Source: Nitrospinae bacterium RIFCSPLOWO2_12_FULL_45_22 (GTDB lineage: Bacteria; 2-12-FULL-45-22). Taken from it: DNA of 9,502 bases. Each line of letters opens with the position of its first letter. The first letter of the stretch is position 1. The stretch spans positions 1 through 9,502 of the forward strand of contig MHDQ01000058.1 of NCBI GenBank assembly GCA_001803565.1, written 5' to 3'. Position numbers and translations under genes: made by a program. This document shows, in pieces, positions 961 through 9,447 of the stretch. The notes under the pieces are model-generated. The model saw nothing but the letters and a program-made list of their open reading frames with translations. It was not told the DNA's origin and did no database searches.

Positions 961-2058
961 ATGAATGAGAGAATCTTCGTAAACGGAAATGAAGCCGTTG
1001 GCTGGGGGGCATTAGCTGCCGATTGTCGGGCCTTCTTTGGCTACCCTATAACACCCCAAAATGAAGTTACAGAATGGTTTGCCCGGGAATTTCCCAAGCG
1101 GGGCCGGATTTTTATCCAGACTTCTTCTGAAACGGCTTCTATCAACTGGCTTTACGGCGGGGCATGTGTAGGGGCCCGGGTTATGACCTCTACTTCTAGT
1201 CCGGGCTGGGCCCTTATGCAAGAGACTATTTCCCATATGGTCAATACCGAGGTGCCTTGTGTAGTTGTCCTGGTGCAACGCGGTGGCCCCGGGCAAGGCA
1301 CTACCCGTCATGCTCAGATGGATTATGCCTCAGCCACCTGGGGGGGTGGCCATGGCGGTTACAAGAATATAGTATTGACCCCGGCTTCTGCCCAGGAAGT
1401 ACACGATCTCATGCAACTGGCCTTTTACCTGGCAGATAAATACTGTAATCCGGTAATAGTCCTGAGTGACGGGATTATTGGTACCATGATGGAGCCGATA
1501 GCATTAAGAGAGATAAATTTTAACTCTTTACCGGAAAAGGATTGGGCCTTACGGGGTAAAGGGAGACGCAAAGACGGTCAGCGCCGGCTCTTAAGTTCTG
1601 GTCAGGGCTTAATACCCACCAGCCGGAACCCTAATTACCTAACCTTACTCCATACGCTGCATAATAAGTTCCAGCAAATGGCTGCCCATGAAATAAGGTA
1701 CGAAGCCTCACTCCTAGAAGATGCGGAGCTGGTTTTAGTAGCCTTTGGCTATGCAGCCCGGGCTAGCCTCCAGGCCATGAATTGGGCTCGGGCAGAAGGT
1801 ATAAAGGTAGGTATGATCAGGCCCATTACGGTATGGCCTTTCCCCTCGCAGATTGTCAAAGAAGAGGCCGAAAAAGGGGTAAAATTTCTGGTGGTAGAAG
1901 ATAATTTAGGCCAGATGGTCATGGATGTTAAGATGGCCTCAGAAGGGAAGGCTGCAATCTATCTGGTGAGTGCCCTGGATAGGCACGAAGCTATGGAAGG
2001 CGGGGCTATTTATCCGGAAAAAGTCCTGGAGAAGATCAAAGAGTTGACAGCAAGCTGA
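961..2058 (+). CDS. korA: 2-oxoacid:ferredoxin oxidoreductase alpha subunit, copy 1 (VorB/KorA type)
   Basis: The 365 residues match the length and layout of the VorB-type alpha subunit. A pyrimidine-binding thiamine diphosphate domain comes first: GYPITP at 27-32, a probable cofactor-activating Glu57 in SSETASIN, and RGGPGQGTTRH at 107-117. A transketolase C-terminal-like domain follows, with GMIRPITVWPFP in its core. With KorB it forms the site that decarboxylates a 2-oxoacid and transfers the acyl group to CoA in the cytoplasm. The stretch GGGHGGYKNIVLTPAS resembles proteins annotated as 3-methyl-2-oxobutanoate (branched-chain) ferredoxin oxidoreductase, but this subgroup is broad and also includes aryl-pyruvate and 2-oxoglutarate enzymes. 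It begins six bases after korD and ends 14 bases before korB. It is clearly paralogous to the minus-strand protein at 6074-7174, starting at the same residue and sharing most motifs. Confidence 0.9.
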   Translation: MNERIFVNGNEAVGWGALAADCRAFFGYPITPQNEVTEWFAREFPKRGRIFIQTSSETASINWLYGGACVGARVMTSTSSPGWALMQETISHMVNTEVPCVVVLVQRGGPGQGTTRHAQMDYASATWGGGHGGYKNIVLTPASAQEVHDLMQLAFYLADKYCNPVIVLSDGIIGTMMEPIALREINFNSLPEKDWALRGKGRRKDGQRRLLSSGQGLIPTSRNPNYLTLLHTLHNKFQQMAAHEIRYEASLLEDAELVLVAFGYAARASLQAMNWARAEGIKVGMIRPITVWPFPSQIVKEEAEKGVKFLVVEDNLGQMVMDVKMASEGKAAIYLVSALDRHEAMEGGAIYPEKVLEKIKELTAS

Positions 2059-2072
2059 GAGGAGTAAGCGAT

Positions 2073-2837
2073 ATGACAGAGAGAAGGCGAATTACCGGTA
2101 CACCGAAGCTCAAAATCGAATTGCCCGTGCCCGTCGGCGCATGTCAGGGGTGTCAGCATGGGTCGGTTGGTAGGATAATATGGGAAGTGCTGGAAGAGTT
2201 GGAGCTAGGCGAAAATACCATCTGGATTGGAGGGGTAACCTGTGGCACTATGAATGCCTTTCTCTCCGATCTGGATGCCGTCGGGCCAGTGCCCCATGGC
2301 CGGGCTCCAGATATTGGCAGCGCTATGAAGCGGCTCCTAGGTAAAGAGACTATAATAATTACTTATCAGGGCGATGGGGATGCTATTGCTATTGGCACTG
2401 AGAGCCTTATCCAGGCAGCAGCACGGGCTGAGAGGATAACGGTTTTTATGGCAAATAATGCCAATTATGGTACCACAGGTGGCCAGATGGCCCCTACTAC
2501 CTTGATGGAGCAAAGGACCACCACTACCCCACAGGGCCGGGGTATGGTAGAGGGCTTCCCTATCAATACCGCCGAGCTGGTGGCCCAACTCAGAGGAACC
2601 GCTTATTCTGCTAGAGGGGCTATTACCTCACCAGCTAATTATCAGCGTACCAAGAAGTATGTAAAAAAGGCATTGCAGAAGCAGATAGATGATATTGGCT
2701 TCAGCTTTGTCGAGATACTATCTGCTTGTCCACCCAACTGGGGCAAAAAACCGGTTGATTGCTTGAAGTGGATAGATGATGAGATGATCAGCCAATATCC
2801 CCTGGGAGAATTTAGAGACCTGGAGAGCCTTAATTAA
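2073..2837 (+). CDS. korB: 2-oxoacid:ferredoxin oxidoreductase beta subunit, copy 1 (thiamine diphosphate and Fe-S binding)
   Basis: The 254-residue beta subunit has the expected set of motifs. Cys24 and Cys27 (ACQGCQHG), Cys57 (GGVTCG) and Cys219 (SACPPNW) are the likely ligands of one [4Fe-4S] cluster. GDGD at 100-103 followed by NN at 128-129 and GTTGGQ at 133-138 is the Mg-thiamine diphosphate binding signature. The usual YGMTGGQ reads YGTTGGQ here. The C-terminal part, with LKWIDDEMI and YPLGEF, is characteristic of VorA-like beta subunits. GAGAGGAG precedes the ATG. The gene ends with a TAA inside TTAATTAAA, which is the left copy of a 9-bp direct repeat flanking an inserted repeat element; korC therefore now lies 183 bases downstream instead of about 11. 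The role is certain, the 2-oxoacid substrate is not. Confidence 0.9.
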   Translation: MTERRRITGTPKLKIELPVPVGACQGCQHGSVGRIIWEVLEELELGENTIWIGGVTCGTMNAFLSDLDAVGPVPHGRAPDIGSAMKRLLGKETIIITYQGDGDAIAIGTESLIQAAARAERITVFMANNANYGTTGGQMAPTTLMEQRTTTTPQGRGMVEGFPINTAELVAQLRGTAYSARGAITSPANYQRTKKYVKKALQKQIDDIGFSFVEILSACPPNWGKKPVDCLKWIDDEMISQYPLGEFRDLESLN

Positions 2838-3010
2838 ATAGCATACTAATTTCCATTCTGGACACAGATGAACACAGATCCGTTTCAATGCAAAATGCAA
2901 AATTAGCAATTAGCATTTCAAAATTAACTCCTTCTTGGTAATTGCTAATTTTATATTGTTAATTTTGCAATGATAGTTATCTGTGTGTATCTGTGTCCTA
3001 ATTAATTAAA
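2830..3010. repeat. Palindromic insertion element with 9-bp flanking direct repeats, between korB and korC
   Basis: TTAATTAAA occurs at 2830-2838 and again at 3002-3010, 172 bp apart. Between them lies a strongly palindromic, non-coding sequence. The outer arms are GGACACAGATGAACACAGAT (2860-2879) and 2979-2998, whose reverse complement is GGACACAGATACACACAGAT; they match at 18 of 20 positions. An inner perfect 14-bp inverted repeat, AAAATTAGCAATTA, pairs 2899-2912 with 2939-2952. This has the form of a small non-autonomous, MITE-like or REP-like element with a target duplication. Deleting one repeat unit rejoins the korB stop directly to AAAGGAGGAGACC and the korC GTG. ACACAGATGAACACAGAT-like arms are a familiar dispersed repeat in environmental genomes; the insertion reading is inferred from the junctions. 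Confidence 0.8.
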
Positions 3011-3020
3011 GGAGGAGACC

Positions 3021-3566
3021 GTGAGTTCCGAAAGATTTGAGGTAATATTTGCTGGGGTGGGGGGGATGGGTGCTTTAACGGCGGGACAGCTCTTGGCTGA
3101 AGCGGCCCTAGCCTACTACCCATGCGTTACCTGGTATCCCAACATTACTACTGCCCGCAGGAACGCCCCGGCAGACTGTATTGTTATCTATTCCAAAGAA
3201 GTTATTGCCTCTCCACTGATACACCGGGTTGGGGCGGCCGTGATAATAGAATCTTCTCAACTAAGGACCTTTGAAGATAGGGTGAAGCCTGGTGGACTGG
3301 TTATAGTAGAGACTGCGGGCCTAAAAGATCATGTCAGCCGAAGAGATATCACGGTAAAGAAAATACCAGGGCTAGAGACTGCTTTACGCCTCGGTAATAG
3401 CCGGGCAGCCAACCTGCTTATGCTGGGGGCTTATATTGGTTCTACTAATACCTTGCCACCAGAACTGATTGAAGAGAAATTAGAAGATAGGTTTAGCAAG
3501 AACAAAAAGGTTCTCGAGATCAACCTAAGAGCCTTCCACGAAGGGATTAGGTTGGGCCACAATTAG
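3021..3566 (+). CDS. korC: 2-oxoacid:ferredoxin oxidoreductase gamma subunit, copy 1 (divergent)
   Basis: The 181-residue protein belongs to the POR/KOR gamma family. It starts with a GTG that follows a strong GGAGGAG site. The N-terminal Rossmann-like motif reads GVGGMGALTAG (residues about 12-22), where the family usually has GxGGQG. The next conserved region, normally like SYGxxxRGG, reads YPNITTARRNAPADC, so the RGG element is replaced; the minus-strand paralogue keeps it as SYATRVRGGPCEC. The middle and C-terminal parts follow the family well, for example FEDRVKPGGLVIVE and NLLMLGAYIG. The subunit completes the CoA-dependent complex with KorA, KorB and KorD. The substitutions may mean altered partner or CoA contacts, or relaxed constraint after duplication. 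The gene was separated from korB by the palindromic element and ends ten bases before tmk. Confidence 0.85.
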   Translation: MSSERFEVIFAGVGGMGALTAGQLLAEAALAYYPCVTWYPNITTARRNAPADCIVIYSKEVIASPLIHRVGAAVIIESSQLRTFEDRVKPGGLVIVETAGLKDHVSRRDITVKKIPGLETALRLGNSRAANLLMLGAYIGSTNTLPPELIEEKLEDRFSKNKKVLEINLRAFHEGIRLGHN

Positions 3567-3576
3567 AGGATTAGGG

Positions 3577-3689
3577 GTGAGCCATAAGCAGCAAGGGGCA
3601 AGGGGTAAGCAGCAAGCAGTAAGGAGTAAGGGGGAAAAAGAAACGCCTCACTGCTCACTGCTCACTGCTCACCCTGGTGGGCTGAGCCA
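3577..3689 (+). repeat. 105-bp heptamer-repeat insertion at the tmk N terminus
   Basis: GTGAGCCA (3577-3584) and CTGAGCCA (3682-3689) are direct repeats exactly 105 bp apart. The insert holds an imperfect inverted repeat: 3605-3631 and 3646-3672 (27 nt each) match at 21 positions. The right arm is CACTGCT repeated with a 7-nt period; the left arm is a decayed AGCAGTG/AGCAGTA version. Collapsing the direct repeat gives GTG AGC CAG GGT, an ideal tmk start. The flanking octamer itself resembles the repeat unit GTGAGCA, so it may be a seed for repeat growth rather than a target duplication. Confidence 0.8.
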
Positions 3690-4434
3690 GGGTGTTCTGA
3701 TTGCCCTGGAGGGGATAGATGGTGCTGGTAAAACTACTCAAGCCCAACTCCTGAAGGATTTCTTGCGGCAAAAAGGGTTTGAGGTCGTATGTTTTAAAGA
3801 ACCTACCCCGGGTCCTTGGGGGAGGAAGATTGCTGAGATTGCCCGATGGGGCCGCAAAGGGATTTCAGCCCAGGAAGAGATGGAACTCTTCCTTAGAGAT
3901 AGAGAAGAAGATGTAAGGGATAACATTTTACCCGCCCTAAGAGAGAATAAGATTGTTATCATGGACCGATATTATTATTCTTCTATCGCCTATCAAGGTG
4001 CCCTGGGCTTAGACCCCAACGAAATAAAAGAAATAAATGAACAACGGTTCCCTAAACCTGACCTGGTATTTATATTGACCATCCCACCGGCCGAGGGTAT
4101 TAAGCGGATATTAAGTAGGGGTCAGGGGTCGGGGATCAGGGGCCCGCAAAGAAGCCCAGCTTATGAGGAAGAAACTTATTTAACGCGGGTAGCTAAAATA
4201 TTCCATGAGCTGGCTAAGAACAAAGAACCAAGAACAAAGAACCAAGAACAAAGAACCAAGAACAAAGAACAAAGAACAAAGAGCTATGAGCCATCAGCTA
4301 AAGGACTATTAGAGCCGCCCTCAACTCACTGCTTACTCATAGATGGGATGCGCCAGATTAACATTGTCCACCAAGAGATAGCCCCGTCAGTATTAGACAG
4401 GTTGAGTCCTTTAATGAGGTGCTCGTGTCCGTAA
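3577..4434 (+). CDS. tmk: Thymidylate kinase with three in-frame repeat insertions
   Basis: This 285-residue dTMP kinase phosphorylates dTMP to dTDP for DNA synthesis. The P-loop GIDGAGKTT is at 46-54, and the DR(Y/H) motif of the family is at 130-132 in MDRYYYSSIAYQG. An EEETYLTRV stretch follows the LID region. The family is normally about 200-215 residues. The excess comes from three low-complexity segments: 35 extra residues after the GTG start, seven (GQGSGIR, 182-188) in the LID region, and 28 (215-242) near the C terminus containing NKEPRTK/NQEQRTK/NKEQRTK heptads. Without them the protein would be 215 residues and begin MSQGVLIALEGIDGAGKTT. No in-frame ATG or GTG lies between the GTG at 3577 and the P-loop, so translation must cross the N-terminal insertion unless a CTG is used. 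It follows korC by ten bases and is probably co-transcribed. Kinase identity is firm; activity with the insertions is unknown. Confidence 0.88.
   Translation: MSHKQQGARGKQQAVRSKGEKETPHCSLLTAHPGGLSQGVLIALEGIDGAGKTTQAQLLKDFLRQKGFEVVCFKEPTPGPWGRKIAEIARWGRKGISAQEEMELFLRDREEDVRDNILPALRENKIVIMDRYYYSSIAYQGALGLDPNEIKEINEQRFPKPDLVFILTIPPAEGIKRILSRGQGSGIRGPQRSPAYEEETYLTRVAKIFHELAKNKEPRTKNQEQRTKNKEQRTKSYEPSAKGLLEPPSTHCLLIDGMRQINIVHQEIAPSVLDRLSPLMRCSCP
4117..4142 (+). repeat. 21-bp heptamer insertion in the tmk LID region
   Basis: The sequence runs as AGGGGTC, AGGGGTC, GGGGATC and then AGGGGCC, a clear 7-nt period. AGGGG at 4117-4121 and 4138-4142 brackets 21 bp, or seven codons. Deleting one bracket-to-bracket unit turns SRGQGSGIRGPQRSPAYEE into SRGPQRSPAYEE, close to what thymidylate kinases show before the Glu-rich segment. 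A similar AGGGGTCAGGGATCAG occurs at 8694-8709 in an intergenic region. Confidence 0.65.
4213..4302 (+). repeat. 84-bp tandem heptamer insertion near the tmk C terminus
   Basis: Positions 4216-4257 are three exact copies of the 14-nt unit AAGAACAAAGAACC, which is two heptamers. Shorter copies follow, ending with AAAGAAC and AAAGAGC at 4271-4284. The translation is three heptads, NKEPRTK, NQEQRTK and NKEQRTK. GCTAAG (4213-4218) and GCTAAA (4297-4302) bracket 84 bp, or 28 codons. Joining them gives HELAKGLLEPPSTHCLLIDG, a plausible native sequence. A second possible bracket, ATGAGC at 4205 and 4286, would give 81 bp, also in frame. Confidence 0.7.
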
Positions 4435-4752: not shown

Positions 4753-5310
4753 CTATGCGATAAACTTAATTCCTGCACGGAAGGCTTGCTGGTTCAACGA
4801 TAAAATTGCCTCTTTATCCCTAAACCTCTCATGAAGCTTTTTCTCTATAGATTCAGGAGAAAGGGCTTTGGTAAGAGCCAGGTAAGCCCCCAGAAGAACC
4901 ATATTTGAAGCCAACTTACTACCCAGACTTAGAGCGATTTCCTGGGCAGGTATAGCTTTCAGTTTGATATCTTCCCTTCCTACCTCATCAACTAAACCAC
5001 TACTTTCTACCAAGATCAATCCTCTGGGTCGTACCCTGTTTTCAAAGGGTTTCAGGTAGAGTGGACTTGCCAGGATCGCTACTGCAGATTTAGAAAGTAA
5101 AGGGGAATATATCTCTTCATGAGATAGGATGACGGTACATTCACACGGCCCTCCCCGTACCCGGGTAGCATATGATGGTGTCCAAACGATATGCCGGTAC
5201 TCGGTAAGACCTGCCTCGGCTAAAATCAAACCAGCGACCAGGACCCCCTGGCCACCGATCCCTGCTATTATCACCTCCGCCCGGTTATTTTCTTCTCTTA
5301 CCATATTCAT
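4753..5310 (-). CDS. korC: 2-oxoacid:ferredoxin oxidoreductase gamma subunit, copy 2
   Basis: The 185-residue protein is a regular POR/KOR gamma subunit. It keeps the canonical GIGGQGVLVAG near residues 17-27 and WTPSYATRVRGGPCECTVI, which contains the RGG element missing in copy 1. FENRVRPRGLILVESSG and NMVLLGAYLALTKALSPESI also follow the family. It should complete the CoA-dependent complex encoded by korA and korB of this operon. The ATG at 5310 follows an AAGGAG site; a second ATG three codons later is possible. Only seven bases separate it from korB, so it is co-transcribed. It is the last gene of the minus-strand operon; beyond its stop lies the truncated antitoxin, with no clear terminator hairpin. 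Confidence 0.9.
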   Translation of the reverse strand: MNMVREENNRAEVIIAGIGGQGVLVAGLILAEAGLTEYRHIVWTPSYATRVRGGPCECTVILSHEEIYSPLLSKSAVAILASPLYLKPFENRVRPRGLILVESSGLVDEVGREDIKLKAIPAQEIALSLGSKLASNMVLLGAYLALTKALSPESIEKKLHERFRDKEAILSLNQQAFRAGIKFIA

Positions 5311-5317
5311 AAGCTCC

Positions 5318-6070
5318 TTAAAGCTGATCTACGTTTTTGAATTCTCCCAGTGGGAATTGGGGAATCATCTGCCCCTCCATCCATTTAAGGCTTTCTAAGG
5401 GACTCATATGCCAACCTGTAGGGCAGGCAGACAGTATCTCTAAAAAGCTAAAGCCTACTCCATCCATCTGCTTTTGCAAGGCTCTTTTCAGGTAGCTCTT
5501 TGTTTGATGAAAATTTTTTATATTATTAACCGCACCTCGGGCACTAAAAGCCACACCCTTAATAGCAGCAGCTAATTCAGCCATATTTATGGGATAACCC
5601 AACGAGGGATTACGGCCCTCGGGCGTAGTAGATGTGATCTGCCCCATAATGCTAGTAGGGGCCAATTGTCCACCGGTCATGGCATAATGGCCATTATTTA
5701 GCATCAACTGGGTAAACTTCTCCGCCCTCCCTGCCGCATTAAGGAAAGCACCGGCACCAATAGCTGCCACATCTCCATCTCCTCCAAAAACCAGGACAAT
5801 ACTTTCTGGCGAGGCCCGCTTTATACCCGTTGCTACATCAATACACTGACCATGATTAGGCATAACGGTATCAGTCGGAGTATTGAGCAATATCCCAGCA
5901 CCACAAGCAGCCCCTCCTACAACCACCGTCTCCCCTACAATCCCCATCTCTTCTATAACCTCAAAAATGATTCGATAAACAATAGGATACTGGCACCCTC
6001 CACATTCCTGCCGCTCAGCAAAATGACTGAGCCAAATATTTGGCAATCCACAGATACGCTCTTTATTCAT
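5318..6070 (-). CDS. korB: 2-oxoacid:ferredoxin oxidoreductase beta subunit, copy 2
   Basis: The 250-residue protein carries Cys23 and Cys26 (ECGGCQ), Cys56 (GGAACG) and a later Cys in SACPTGW as probable [4Fe-4S] ligands. GDGD at 97-100, NN at 125-126 and YAMTGGQ at 129-135 make up the Mg-thiamine diphosphate site. The segment usually like HGRA reads HGQC here, and the canonical CPGCxH is changed to CGGCQY, so this copy differs from the plus-strand one around the cluster. The C-terminal LKWMEGQMIPQFPLGEF is typical of VorA-like subunits. The ATG lies three bases after the korA stop, with an AAGGGGG site inside the end of korA, so translation is likely coupled. It catalyses the same step as the first complex; a different 2-oxoacid preference is possible but unproven. 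Confidence 0.9.
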   Translation of the reverse strand: MNKERICGLPNIWLSHFAERQECGGCQYPIVYRIIFEVIEEMGIVGETVVVGGAACGAGILLNTPTDTVMPNHGQCIDVATGIKRASPESIVLVFGGDGDVAAIGAGAFLNAAGRAEKFTQLMLNNGHYAMTGGQLAPTSIMGQITSTTPEGRNPSLGYPINMAELAAAIKGVAFSARGAVNNIKNFHQTKSYLKRALQKQMDGVGFSFLEILSACPTGWHMSPLESLKWMEGQMIPQFPLGEFKNVDQL

Positions 6071-6073
6071 GCC

Positions 6074-7174
6074 TTACGCCCCCTTCAAAATTTCTTCCAA
6101 AACCCTCTCGGGTAAGATCATACCCACGTCAGTTGGGTCATGCCGGGCTAGGGCCCCCAAAAGACTCACTTCAGCCATCCCCTGTACTGCCATCTTGACA
6201 TCTTCCACCAACTGGCCAAGGCTATCTTCCACCACAAGGAATTTAGCCCCATTCAAGGCCTTTTCCCTGATAATCTGGTAGGGAAAGGGCCAGGCAGTAA
6301 TGGGGCGTATCATGCCAACTTTTATCCCCTCTTTCCTGGCCAATACGATAGCTTCCTTAGATACTCTTGCGGTATATCCATAGGATACTATTATTATTTC
6401 AGCATTATCGGCCTCAAAGGTGTCATACCGCACCTCTTCCTTCTCCATCATCATATATTTTTTATTTAAGGCCTCTAAAAGCTGCAAATAATTAGCATAG
6501 GGAGGATGTGGTGGAGTGGGCATTAGGCCCTGCATAGCCATAACCACCCTTCGTCTACCGTCCTTATGCCACTTAAGTCCTTTTATAGCCCAATCTTTTT
6601 CAGGCAGTGGAGCAAAGCTACGGCTCCTTAATTCCAGAGGCTCTATCATCTGACCCAATATCCCATCAGACAATAATATCACCAGGTTTCTATATTTATC
6701 TGCCAGATAGAAGGCCAGTTGGGTAAGGTAATAGATTTCCTGAACCGATGCCGGGGCAAGGACTATATTTTTATATCCCCCCTGCCCACCACCCCGGGTT
6801 ACAGACAAGTAATCCATTTGGCCATGGCGGGTAGTACCGGCCCCCGGACCACCCCTTTGTACATTGACGATCACACAGGGTACCTCAGCATTGGCTATAC
6901 TAGATATGCCTTCCTGCATCAGGCCCCAGCCTGGCCCCGATGTAGTAGTAATGGCCCTAACACCAGTAGCGGCTGCTCCAAACAGCATATTAATAGAACC
7001 GGTCTCTGATTGCGATTGAACAAAACAACCCCCGCGTTTGGGGAGCTCCCGGGCAAACCACTCCGTAATTTCATTTTGTGGGGTAACCGGATAACCGAAA
7101 AAATGTAGACAACCTGCGGCTATAGCCCCCCACCCCACCGCCTCATTGCCAGTTACCAGGATCCTCTCGGTCAC
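6074..7174 (-). CDS. korA: 2-oxoacid:ferredoxin oxidoreductase alpha subunit, copy 2 (VorB/KorA type)
   Basis: The 366-residue protein starts at GTG 7174, preceded by AAGGAGGGG, and has the same layout as the plus-strand copy. GYPVTP is at 27-32, SQSETGSINM contains the probable activating Glu57, and RGGPGAGTTRH sits near 107-117. The C-terminal transketolase-like domain includes MIRPITAWPFP. GGGQGGYKNIVLAPASVQEI and SDGILGQMIEP are closer to consensus VorB sequences than copy 1 is. Together with KorB it forms the thiamine diphosphate active site. It lies 36 bases after the ubiD stop, so both are probably transcribed together. No ferredoxin-like delta subunit gene accompanies this operon in the window. 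Confidence 0.9.
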   Translation of the reverse strand: MTERILVTGNEAVGWGAIAAGCLHFFGYPVTPQNEITEWFARELPKRGGCFVQSQSETGSINMLFGAAATGVRAITTTSGPGWGLMQEGISSIANAEVPCVIVNVQRGGPGAGTTRHGQMDYLSVTRGGGQGGYKNIVLAPASVQEIYYLTQLAFYLADKYRNLVILLSDGILGQMIEPLELRSRSFAPLPEKDWAIKGLKWHKDGRRRVVMAMQGLMPTPPHPPYANYLQLLEALNKKYMMMEKEEVRYDTFEADNAEIIIVSYGYTARVSKEAIVLARKEGIKVGMIRPITAWPFPYQIIREKALNGAKFLVVEDSLGQLVEDVKMAVQGMAEVSLLGALARHDPTDVGMILPERVLEEILKGA

Positions 7175-7210: not shown

Positions 7211-8572
7211 CTACGGGTTATCAATTTTTTGCTGTTCGACTATAGTTTTTAGTCGAGCCATTACATCCTGGGATATACCTGCCCGTTCAAAGCGCTCCGG
7301 TTGGTCCAATGGCTTAGTAGCATCAATAGACCAAACGGATGAATAATACTTATCTCCTATCTGCCTGGATGAGGGATCAAACTCCATCCATTCTATTCCA
7401 GAGATAATCCGTATATCTGTGTCTGGCTGGCAGCGCGTAGCGATTGCCCATTCTATATCTTTAGGATCATCAATGTTTACATCGGTATCCACTACAACAA
7501 TTAGCTTAGAGTAAGGATTTAGCGAGCGTAAATGCTGAATGATTCCAGGCACATCATCTTGGGACCCCTTCTCTATTTGTACCACAACATGGAAGCCTAT
7601 CATGTTAATCTTTAATCTCTTTATTTGGGGAAAGGCTTCCCGCGCCTGGATGAAGAGTTCTGGAGTCCAGGTAAGATCAATCAAGGCTGAATCTTCGCTG
7701 GTATTGGGCATTAAGGCATGATAAATGGGGTTTTTCCTATGGGTAATAGCCCCGACTTTTGCTATATAAACCGGTTGACCGTGATAATAACCATCTGAAT
7801 CGCCAAACGGGCCATCTATTTCCCTTAGGCCAGGGATGAGCCGGCCTTCCAGGATAAATTCGGCCCTGGCTGGAACTTCCAAATCAATAGATTCAGCCCT
7901 GGTTATCTCTAATGGCCCACCCCGTAATGCACCACCAAGCTCATACTTATCTACCCCTTCCGGTGCGAAGGCCACGGAGGAGAAAAAGGTCATGGGATCT
8001 AGGCCAATTACTACTGCTATCTCCAAACCTACACCCTTTTCTTCCGCCTTCTGGACAATCCTGGACATGCCCGGAGAGGCAATCACTATGCTGAAACTAT
8101 CCTTATCCCTTATCCTGATACGATGAAGGCCCATACGATGGTAGCCGGTTTCAGGATGTCTAGCAACAGTAAGTCCCGATGTTATGTAAGGGCCTATATC
8201 TTTACTGTGGTGGGTTAGTGCTGGGAGGGTAGCCATAATATCAATATTATTACGGATTATAATATCTTTGACTGGAGCATCTTTCACTATTAAGGGTTTC
8301 AATAAAGTTTTACGGCGGGCAAGGTATTCCTCCCCAAGGTCTTTAGAGGTATTGAAGGCCAGGCTAAGTAATTTCTCACTTCCTAAAAGATTGGCTACTA
8401 CCGGTATATTGTACCCCTTTACTCGATGGAAAAACACCACTGAACCGATCTTTTTATTTAAGAGTTTTATCATGCCCGCTATCTCCTGGACAGGCGAGAG
8501 TTCTTCCCAGATATGGAATATATCCCCAGACTGATCCAAAAAGGCCAAAAAATCCCTCAGGTCTCTATACAT
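7211..8572 (-). CDS. ubiD: UbiD-family decarboxylase with non-consensus active site
   Basis: UbiD enzymes use prenylated FMN to reversibly (de)carboxylate aromatic or unsaturated acids. The protein has 453 residues from the ATG at 8572, where MYRDLRDFLAFL matches usual UbiD starts and GGGGG-AGCAAGGGGT gives a ribosome site. An in-frame ATG at 8590 adds six residues but lacks such a site. Recognisable motifs are ATLPALTHHSKDIGPYIT, HRMGLHRI (145-152), DKYELGGALRGGPLEI and IDGPFGDSDGYY. By eye, some positions differ from characterised members. The Asn of NxGxxR is Arg146, while the Arg is kept as Arg151. The first Glu of EGPFG(E/D) is Asp253. The His-bearing segment after the Arg reads SIVIASPGMSR. 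It heads the second kor operon, suggesting it supplies or consumes a metabolite of that complex. Menaquinone-pathway MqnL and aromatic acid decarboxylases are alternatives; the substrate cannot be told. No UbiX prenyltransferase is seen. Confidence 0.85.
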   Translation of the reverse strand: MYRDLRDFLAFLDQSGDIFHIWEELSPVQEIAGMIKLLNKKIGSVVFFHRVKGYNIPVVANLLGSEKLLSLAFNTSKDLGEEYLARRKTLLKPLIVKDAPVKDIIIRNNIDIMATLPALTHHSKDIGPYITSGLTVARHPETGYHRMGLHRIRIRDKDSFSIVIASPGMSRIVQKAEEKGVGLEIAVVIGLDPMTFFSSVAFAPEGVDKYELGGALRGGPLEITRAESIDLEVPARAEFILEGRLIPGLREIDGPFGDSDGYYHGQPVYIAKVGAITHRKNPIYHALMPNTSEDSALIDLTWTPELFIQAREAFPQIKRLKINMIGFHVVVQIEKGSQDDVPGIIQHLRSLNPYSKLIVVVDTDVNIDDPKDIEWAIATRCQPDTDIRIISGIEWMEFDPSSRQIGDKYYSSVWSIDATKPLDQPERFERAGISQDVMARLKTIVEQQKIDNP

Positions 8573-8851: not shown

Positions 8852-9154
8852 TCATACAGCGCTTGCATACGTCCTTACTTCTTGCTTCAACCTTTCGCCG
8901 AGTTCCTCGGCAGTGACATCTAAGTCATACTGTGATTGCAGTCCGAGCCAGAATTCGGCTGATGTTCCAAAAAACGTTGCAAGCCTGAGGGCGGTATCAG
9001 CAGTAATTCCGCGCTTGCCGAGAACAATCTCGTTAATTCTCCGTGGTGGTACACCAATATTTAGGGCCAGTTTATTTTGACTTATACCCATTGGCTTTAG
9101 AAATTCTTCCAAAAGAACTTCGCCTGGATGTACGGGATATAGCTTCTTCTTCAT
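8852..9154 (-). CDS. higA: HigA-family antitoxin (XRE-type helix-turn-helix)
   Basis: The 100-residue protein opens with VHPGEVLLEEFLKPMGISQN, the hallmark of HigA antitoxins. An XRE-type helix-turn-helix follows at about residues 25-44 (QNKLALNIGVPPRRINEIV). LRLATFFGTSAEFWLGLQ after it is also typical. HigA neutralises the HigB toxin and represses the operon by binding its promoter. The start follows a GGAGGAG site located in the 11-base gap after the higB stop, so the two genes are one transcript in the usual higBA order. The length is normal and no damage is visible. The likely target is the TAACG-N5-CGTTA site before higB. Confidence 0.93.
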   Translation of the reverse strand: MKKKLYPVHPGEVLLEEFLKPMGISQNKLALNIGVPPRRINEIVLGKRGITADTALRLATFFGTSAEFWLGLQSQYDLDVTAEELGERLKQEVRTYASAV

Positions 9155-9165
9155 AACTCTCCTCC

Positions 9166-9447
9166 CTAATGATAGTCGGTTATTTCTACATCATATGCAT
9201 CAGCTTCTTGGCAGGCAAAGCAAATGCGCCATTGGTCATTGATCCTAATGCTATATTGACCTTCACGGGCACCTTTTAACTTTTCAAGCCTATTCGCTGG
9301 TGGTATTCTTAAGTCATTAAGATTTTTGGCATTATTTATCATGCGTAATTTCCTTAATGCAACTTGTTGGATATCTCGTGGTAATTTGCTCGATCCCTCC
9401 CGACTATAAACTTTTTCTGTTTCCTTGTTTTTGAATGATTTTATCAT
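9166..9447 (-). CDS. higB: HigB-family toxin (RelE-like mRNA endonuclease)
   Basis: The 93-residue protein begins MIKSFKNKETEKVYSREG and ends DVEITDYH, both typical of the HigB/plasmid maintenance killer branch of the RelE superfamily. The conserved middle LEKLKGAREGQYSIRINDQW, followed by RICF, carries the Arg and Lys residues expected of ribosome-dependent mRNA interferases. The length is normal and the frame is intact, so the toxin is probably functional. Toxin precedes antitoxin, as is usual for higBA. The ATG lies only seven bases after the predicted -10 box with no Shine-Dalgarno site, which suggests a leaderless message. A start further inside would remove conserved N-terminal residues, so I keep this one. 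Confidence 0.92.
   Translation of the reverse strand: MIKSFKNKETEKVYSREGSSKLPRDIQQVALRKLRMINNAKNLNDLRIPPANRLEKLKGAREGQYSIRINDQWRICFACQEADAYDVEITDYH

Follow-up and report, generated by a model that had tools for sequence, protein, structure and literature searches.

Heptamer-built, in-frame inserts in a thymidylate kinase gene and their probable derivation from an insertion element with inverted heptamer ends and a PF05635 gene

The window analysed here, which is an entire contig of 9502 bp from a 3.67-Mb draft genome (321 contigs, 85% complete), carries at 3577..4434 on the forward strand a gene for thymidylate kinase (tmk) of 285 aa with a GTG start and, at about 3565-3569 on the same strand, a ribosome-binding site AGAGG. 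The product matches the Pfam profile Thymidylate_kin (PF02223; E 1.5e-43) with 149 bits against a cut-off of 27, and it is the only thymidylate kinase match in the draft genome. The gene is flanked by two convergent sets of 2-oxoacid:ferredoxin oxidoreductase genes (961-3566 and 4753-7174; alpha, beta and gamma, POR families), which we read as a duplicated operon and which are followed by a UbiD-family decarboxylase gene; a HigB-like toxin gene and an adjoining HTH antitoxin gene (PF05015, PF01381) lie at 8852-9447. The invariant core residues of thymidylate kinases are present in the tmk product, as judged from a 30-member alignment, and the AlphaFold prediction made with this alignment gives the kinase core a pLDDT of about 95. 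The stretches discussed below as inserts (residues about 1-35, 181-200 and 215-250) have values of about 47-74 and are, in the predicted structure, tails and loops external to the kinase fold.

Self-comparison at a lag of 7 bp identified four tracts within tmk (3590-3637, 3640-3677, 4117-4144 and 4212-4298) and a single intergenic tract in the window (2886-2918), and lags of 4-6 and 8-12 gave no tract at all in the window. The original prediction had seen three in-frame, heptamer-bearing inserts in tmk, and this is confirmed: all three lie inside the single open reading frame of 285 codons (3577-4434), and they are missing from about 80 relatives, the comparison set being composed of 3 of the nearest matches among 60 genomes and of 80 loci of named genomes. 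Relatives sharing the segments as conserved domains were looked for, and none of the about 80 does so; an ancestral thymidylate kinase domain was ruled out as the source of the segments, which are absent from all of them. This supports the description of the inserts as lineage-specific, heptamer-built and frame-preserving. No empty tmk allele of a near relative was found, and the sole other genome of the order (68% complete) has no tmk match.

Insert 1 (3585..3689, forward strand) measures 105 bp, or 15 heptamers, as had been predicted, since the word TGAGCCA at 3578-3584 recurs at 3683-3689 and these bounding direct repeats are spaced by 105 bp. The insert-free start of the gene can be deduced as GTGAGCCAGGG (MSQGVLIALEG), which matches MKQGILIVFEG of a relative, and the thymidylate kinases of relatives begin at the equivalent of residue 36; residues 1-30, in insert 1, have a pLDDT of about 50 in the AlphaFold prediction. 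One heptamer type had been assigned to each insert, which does not hold for insert 1, composed as it is of two arms in opposite orientation: a lag-7 run of GTAAGCA-like heptamers on the forward strand (3590..3637), followed by a lag-7 run of CTCACTG, the inverted form of GTGAGCA, on the reverse strand (3643..3677). The inverted-partner score is 14 for the left arm, where the 95% control threshold is 12, and 17 for the right arm, and the left arm, a short loop and the inverted right arm form a hairpin. Folded as RNA this hairpin has an energy of -43.5 kcal/mol (z -2.1), an excess which is only modest because the composition alone already folds well. Insert 1 looks like a gene-less hairpin copy of the element described below; among the elements read there was no gene-carrying copy with GTGAGCA arms.

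Insert 2 (4117..4144, forward strand) is an AGGGGTC-type tract with a net length of 21 bp (+/- 3), or 3 heptamers, and here too the predicted 21 bp is borne out, within 3 bp, by the length of the I..Y loop, which has 22 residues as opposed to 13-16 in relatives (mode 14-15). Insert 3 (4216..4320, forward strand) is composed of an AAGAACM array (4216-4282) and a AGCTATGAGCCATCAGC-type tail, with ends that are uncertain by a few codons. The F..D segment at this position counts 46 residues, compared with 11 in 57 of about 78 measurable relatives (range 9-14, truncated ones aside), and the alignment gap is 35 residues; from this excess of 46 over 11 it follows that insert 3 encodes 35 aa and has a net length of 105 bp, or 15 heptamers, and not the 84 bp first proposed, a value which had been flagged as dependent on the junction chosen. 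The residues in question (about 215-250) have a pLDDT of 49-72 in the AlphaFold prediction. Insert 3 shares the words AAGAACA and AGCTATGAGC..ATCAGC with two full elements of the genome (L075 and L172 in our numbering of loci), whose arms are built of them. Neither insert 2 nor insert 3 has an inverted partner within 100 bp, and none of the tmk inserts contains a PF05635 ORF; we infer that inserts 2 and 3 are remnants, that is solo or decayed arms. Deletion of all three inserts (105+21+105 bp) leaves a normal kinase, as predicted, but one of about 208 and not 215 residues, and it is the net insertions, not the visible repeat tracts, whose lengths are multiples of 21 bp.

A search of 1.50 Mb of the same genome yielded 72 runs of period 7 versus 1 in a Markov shuffle, so that the heptamer repeats are real and far beyond chance. 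Other periods mostly gave 0-4 runs, with the exception of period 8 (28 runs) and of the harmonics 14, 21 and 28. Tandem 7-bp units which are dispersed and exceed other periods, the features by which heptanucleotide STRRs are recognised, are therefore present both in the window and in the genome. Genes hold fewer arrays than expected, since at the loosest threshold coding-like flanks were seen for 41 of 109 arrays compared with 76% of random sites, and most arrays follow closely on a stop codon or closely precede a start codon. About ten sampled arrays have coding sequence on both sides and an open frame. Arrays within genes were found in tmk, recD2 (L074), hsdM and hsdR (L080), the genes for a GH38 protein (L036) and a GT4 glycosyltransferase (L105), and a lipoprotein leader (L087), the remaining arrays with coding-like flanks in the 1.5-Mb sample lying between two different genes. 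An array in asnB (L105:2669) was not counted as an insert, the encoded residues looking native to the family. No heptamer-frameshifted gene occurred among the sampled arrays with coding flanks. By homology the excess in recD2 is 12-24 aa, which is too loose for a 21-bp rule, and only tmk gave a clean excess. The smallest length divisible by both 7 and 3 being 21, a surviving heptamer insertion in an essential gene must have a net length that is a multiple of 21; the 21-bp rule is ordinary purifying selection on frame and no property of array growth. The claim that arrays are tolerated in genes only in steps of 21 bp thus agrees with the open frames of the in-gene arrays but is trivial, 21 being 7 x 3.

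Of 90 arrays, 43 have an inverted partner no more than 100 bp away that scores higher than the 95% control level, as compared with 13 that have a direct partner and 6 a reversed-control partner; for roughly half of the arrays no inverted partner could be detected. The spacing of inverted neighbour pairs is bimodal: ten pairs are hairpins whose arms lie 10-42 bp apart, and in three pairs the distance is 358-373 bp, all three of these enclosing a PF05635 gene. This family (23S_rRNA_IVP) is that of the 23S rRNA intervening-sequence protein, S23, a four-helix bundle. The present genome has nine such genes and fourteen well-known control genomes have none; the other genome of the order (G001), in which GTGAGCA-type arrays are present, has no PF05635 match. 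Five of the nine, those in the 1.50-Mb sample, were read, and by eye all five are flanked by heptamer arms, those to the left and right being inverted relative to each other, with one set of arm words for each gene (AAGAACA; GTTCTAG; AATGCAA/AATTAGC; AGCTGAT/AGCTATG; GCGGAAT). A strict test for runs on both sides was positive for 3 of the 5 genes versus 1 of 1260 other ORFs. The layout of a full copy is arm, PF05635 gene, inverted arm, over about 0.45 kb or more, and the protein has 115-130 aa. To our knowledge PF05635 contains no known transposase, HUH, DDE or nuclease domain, and we know of no transposase activity in the family; an unsystematic look noticed no reverse transcriptase beside the elements read in this genome.

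The window also contains, between the KGOR beta and gamma genes, a complete miniature inverted-repeat element of 139 bp (2860..2998, without assigned strand) which has imperfect inverted ends of 61 bp (43 matches), heptameric arms of AATGCAA/AATTAGC and outer ends GGACACAGATGAACACAGAT. More than 10 nearly identical copies occur at unrelated sites in the sampled genome. The same arms also bound the PF05635 gene in L102, the other copies being gene-less. With arms shared with a gene-carrying relative this element is a candidate gene-less copy, as is insert 1 with its hairpin and TGAGCCA direct repeats.

Searching plasmid records with one PF05635 protein gave 25 records, nearly all from cyanobacteria, which are the group known for heptamer STRRs, and 22 loci were analysed. 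In 14 of the 22 the 120 bp upstream of the gene hold a lag-7 run, and in 10 the 120 bp downstream do so; among 3940 control windows taken from these loci the proportion is 1.2%, and other lags gave 0-1 runs (lag 8, 3 and 3). Inverted heptamer arms were seen by eye in the Azospirillum copy, octamer arms in two copies (Gemmatirosa and one Nostoc plasmid), and a few PF05635 genes were without arms (L257, L275). PF05635 genes with inverted arms have thus been seen in hosts of two unrelated kinds. The octamer arms at L271 and L276 are of GAGCAGAG-type, and the lag-8 excess of the genome amounts to 28 runs. At L261, L268 and L272 the arm upstream of the PF05635 gene ends in CAGGAGTCAGAATAAATG, and the heptamer therefore gives the gene of the element a Shine-Dalgarno-like AGGAG. 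The PF05635 gene at L272:7983-8560 is apparently itself split by another heptamer-ended hairpin insertion. PF05635 elements are also located within CRISPR-Cas operons at L259, L264 and L270 (around 7980-8360), in type I-D between cas6 and cas4 and in type III-B between cas10 and cmr3; such insertions may lie behind the listing of "23S rRNA IVP" as CRISPR-linked (PMC10910872).

Comparison of filled and empty plasmid sites showed that arm, gene and arm arrive together as one insertion. The empty site L277 (Nostoc linckia, about 98% identical) reads AAAAAGTAATTAACAAAT and the filled site L268 (Trichormus) reads AAAAAGTAAT-[arm, gene, arm]-TTTGTAATTAACAAAT, with the junctions ...AAGTAAT, element, ...TTGTAAT, TAACAAAT, in which GTAAT is repeated. 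In the second case the empty site L267 (Nostoc pNsp_c) reads GGTTCTAGGTTATG and the filled site L261 (pNsp_a) reads GGTTCTA-[element]-GGATTCTAGTTATG, with the junctions GGTTCTA, element, GGATTCTA, GTTATG and a repeated TTCTA. Both clean sites therefore have a 5-bp direct repeat, or target duplication; the junctions were not clean at the other empty sites (L267 site B; L255 versus L280 and L279). Orthologous arms differ by whole heptamers, namely by 7 bp between L255 and L256 and by 14 bp between L268 and L269, and the prediction was right that arrays change by whole units. We consider it probable that the heptamer arrays represent the inverted termini of a short insertion element whose full form carries one PF05635 gene.

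It is unlikely, by comparison, that a near-matching word seeds each array, which then grows in place by polymerase slippage, surviving within genes only at net multiples of 21 bp and involving no mobile element. Slippage would account for the variation of orthologous arms by whole heptamers and for flanking words that resemble the repeat units (GTGAGCCA and GTGAGCA), and the accessible text of PMC4679880 cites heptamer slippage as a proposal for bacteria in general; it leaves unexplained, however, the inverted pairing, the bimodal spacing, the arrays flanking PF05635 genes and the insertion of arm, gene and arm at empty sites, and both orientations occur inside insert 1. Growth from near-matching genomic seeds, as originally proposed, is thus unsupported, inverted pairs and the arrival of arm, gene and arm as a unit being seen instead, and where a seed resembles its repeat, duplication of the target site or microhomology with the target is the better reading. 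Less probable again is a functional and non-mobile role in which the arrays are host regulatory hairpins or terminators, bound and regulated by PF05635 as a host protein. The position of most arrays, right behind a stop codon or ahead of a start codon, is in keeping with such a role, as is the ribosome-binding site that purine-rich upstream arms can supply (such as CAGGAGTCAGAATAAATG in L261), but presence and absence at empty sites with short direct repeats, more than 10 near-identical copies at unrelated sites, and insertions in the conserved genes tmk, recD2, hsdM and hsdR all argue against it. That the tmk inserts are a metagenome assembly artefact, with collapsed or chimeric repeats and a true gene that is shorter, is very improbable even in a fragmented draft of 321 contigs and 85% completeness, given that every insert is in frame and stop-free, that the copies are imperfect and not collapsed, that the region has zero N and that the arrays in other conserved genes are frame-open as well.

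If the arrays are the ends of an insertion element, the gene-less hairpins and solo arrays would be derived copies of the arm-gene-arm form, and most insertions of the element would fall in the gap that separates a stop codon from the following start codon. A gene-less hairpin copy would have entered tmk at codon 3, with TGAGCCA as direct repeat, to produce insert 1, and selection would have retained only copies whose net length is a multiple of 3 and which can be read through without a stop codon, leading to a kinase with disordered tails and loops. The gene-less copies may be mobilised in trans by PF05635 proteins; as a guess, the protein might recruit a host nuclease or reverse transcriptase by binding the heptamer hairpin in the form of DNA or RNA. 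By analogy an RNA or hairpin step would be the likeliest, because the homologue Avd is present in retroelements and RNase III cuts the Coxiella intervening sequence (IVS).

REP/BIME palindromes with RAYT transposases, and likewise MITEs, combine numerous short hairpins with one protein-coding relative that shares their ends. The present hairpins are many and also have one gene-carrying relative with the same ends, but unlike those systems PF05635 is without a HUH/DDE nuclease domain and the tandem-heptamer arms are variable between elements of one genome. Avd works together with a reverse transcriptase, on a template that bears repeats, whereas no neighbouring reverse transcriptase was noticed by the elements read here. 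It is an accessory protein of diversity-generating retroelements and a homologous four-helix bundle (PMC10053308). According to the accessible text of PMC4990558, the 23S rRNA IVS of Coxiella burnetii is located in helix 45, is excised by RNase III, is described as selfish, and has terminal inverted repeats and tandem GACAGAT heptamers, in 2-3 copies by strain, just before the S23 ORF; that text notes the heptamers and not their spread. The elements described here are similar in that a PF05635-type (S23) ORF lies between inverted repeats with adjoining heptamers, and differ in their location, which is within protein genes or between them, in the many copies that a genome holds, in their long heptamer arms and in their gene-less forms. 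A PF05635 ORF between inverted terminal repeats was found for 5 of 5 genes read by eye (3 in the strict test) and for most of the 22 plasmid copies; as the elements lie between protein genes, and the tmk inserts within one, and not in 23S rRNA, we say that they work like an IVS and do not call them IVS. Repeats of GGGAATC have been reported in Xanthomonas and Nostoc (PMC4692102), and of TAACTGA in Beggiatoaceae, where in-ORF cases were reported and a mobile carrier was raised as a possibility (PMC4679880). Like these and the STRRs of heterocystous cyanobacteria, the present arrays have a period of 7 and are dispersed, mostly intergenic near stop or start codons and rarer in genes; unlike here, the accessible parts of both papers treat the heptamers as simple sequence repeats or regulatory motifs, without PF05635 or inverted arms. 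We class the tmk inserts with the heptamer STRRs, here located in an essential gene, and the element as a variant of the IVS/S23 kind which lacks the defining 23S rRNA location.

The wider relation of heptamers to PF05635 was addressed in 145 genomes. Arrays of AATTCAG were present in 20 of 49 genomes with PF05635 versus 11 of 96 without (Fisher 8e-5, for genomes related to different degrees and with phylogeny ignored), and the reversed word showed no correlation. For GTGAGCA the counts were 8 of 49 versus 3 of 96, and this word adds little because the reversed control behaves alike, correlating equally. AGAACAA was discarded as a test word, being too AT-rich with an equally frequent reversed control. 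One surveyed genome (G009) has 19 PF05635 matches, many of them partial and in closely spaced opposite-strand pairs. We propose tentatively, as a possibility not much short of an even chance, that most bacterial heptanucleotide and some octanucleotide repeats, the cyanobacterial STRRs included, are ends or remnants of one class of mobile elements with S23/PF05635 as its only gene, of which the 23S rRNA IVS would be a special case and whose repeats sometimes enter essential genes in frame.

That bacterial genomes hold an excess of heptamers has long been known without explanation, a puzzle of decades, and we know of no function for the PF05635 proteins, which are annotated as "S23 ribosomal protein" or "four helix bundle protein". 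A search of the open literature, subscription papers and preprints lying outside it, found nothing that joins the heptamers with four-helix-bundle proteins. Joining the two gives a testable meaning to both, namely that the protein acts on its own arms. For annotators there is the warning that PF05635 genes inside operons, several of them CRISPR-Cas operons, may be passengers, and tmk shows an essential enzyme absorbing the ends of an element as disordered loops.
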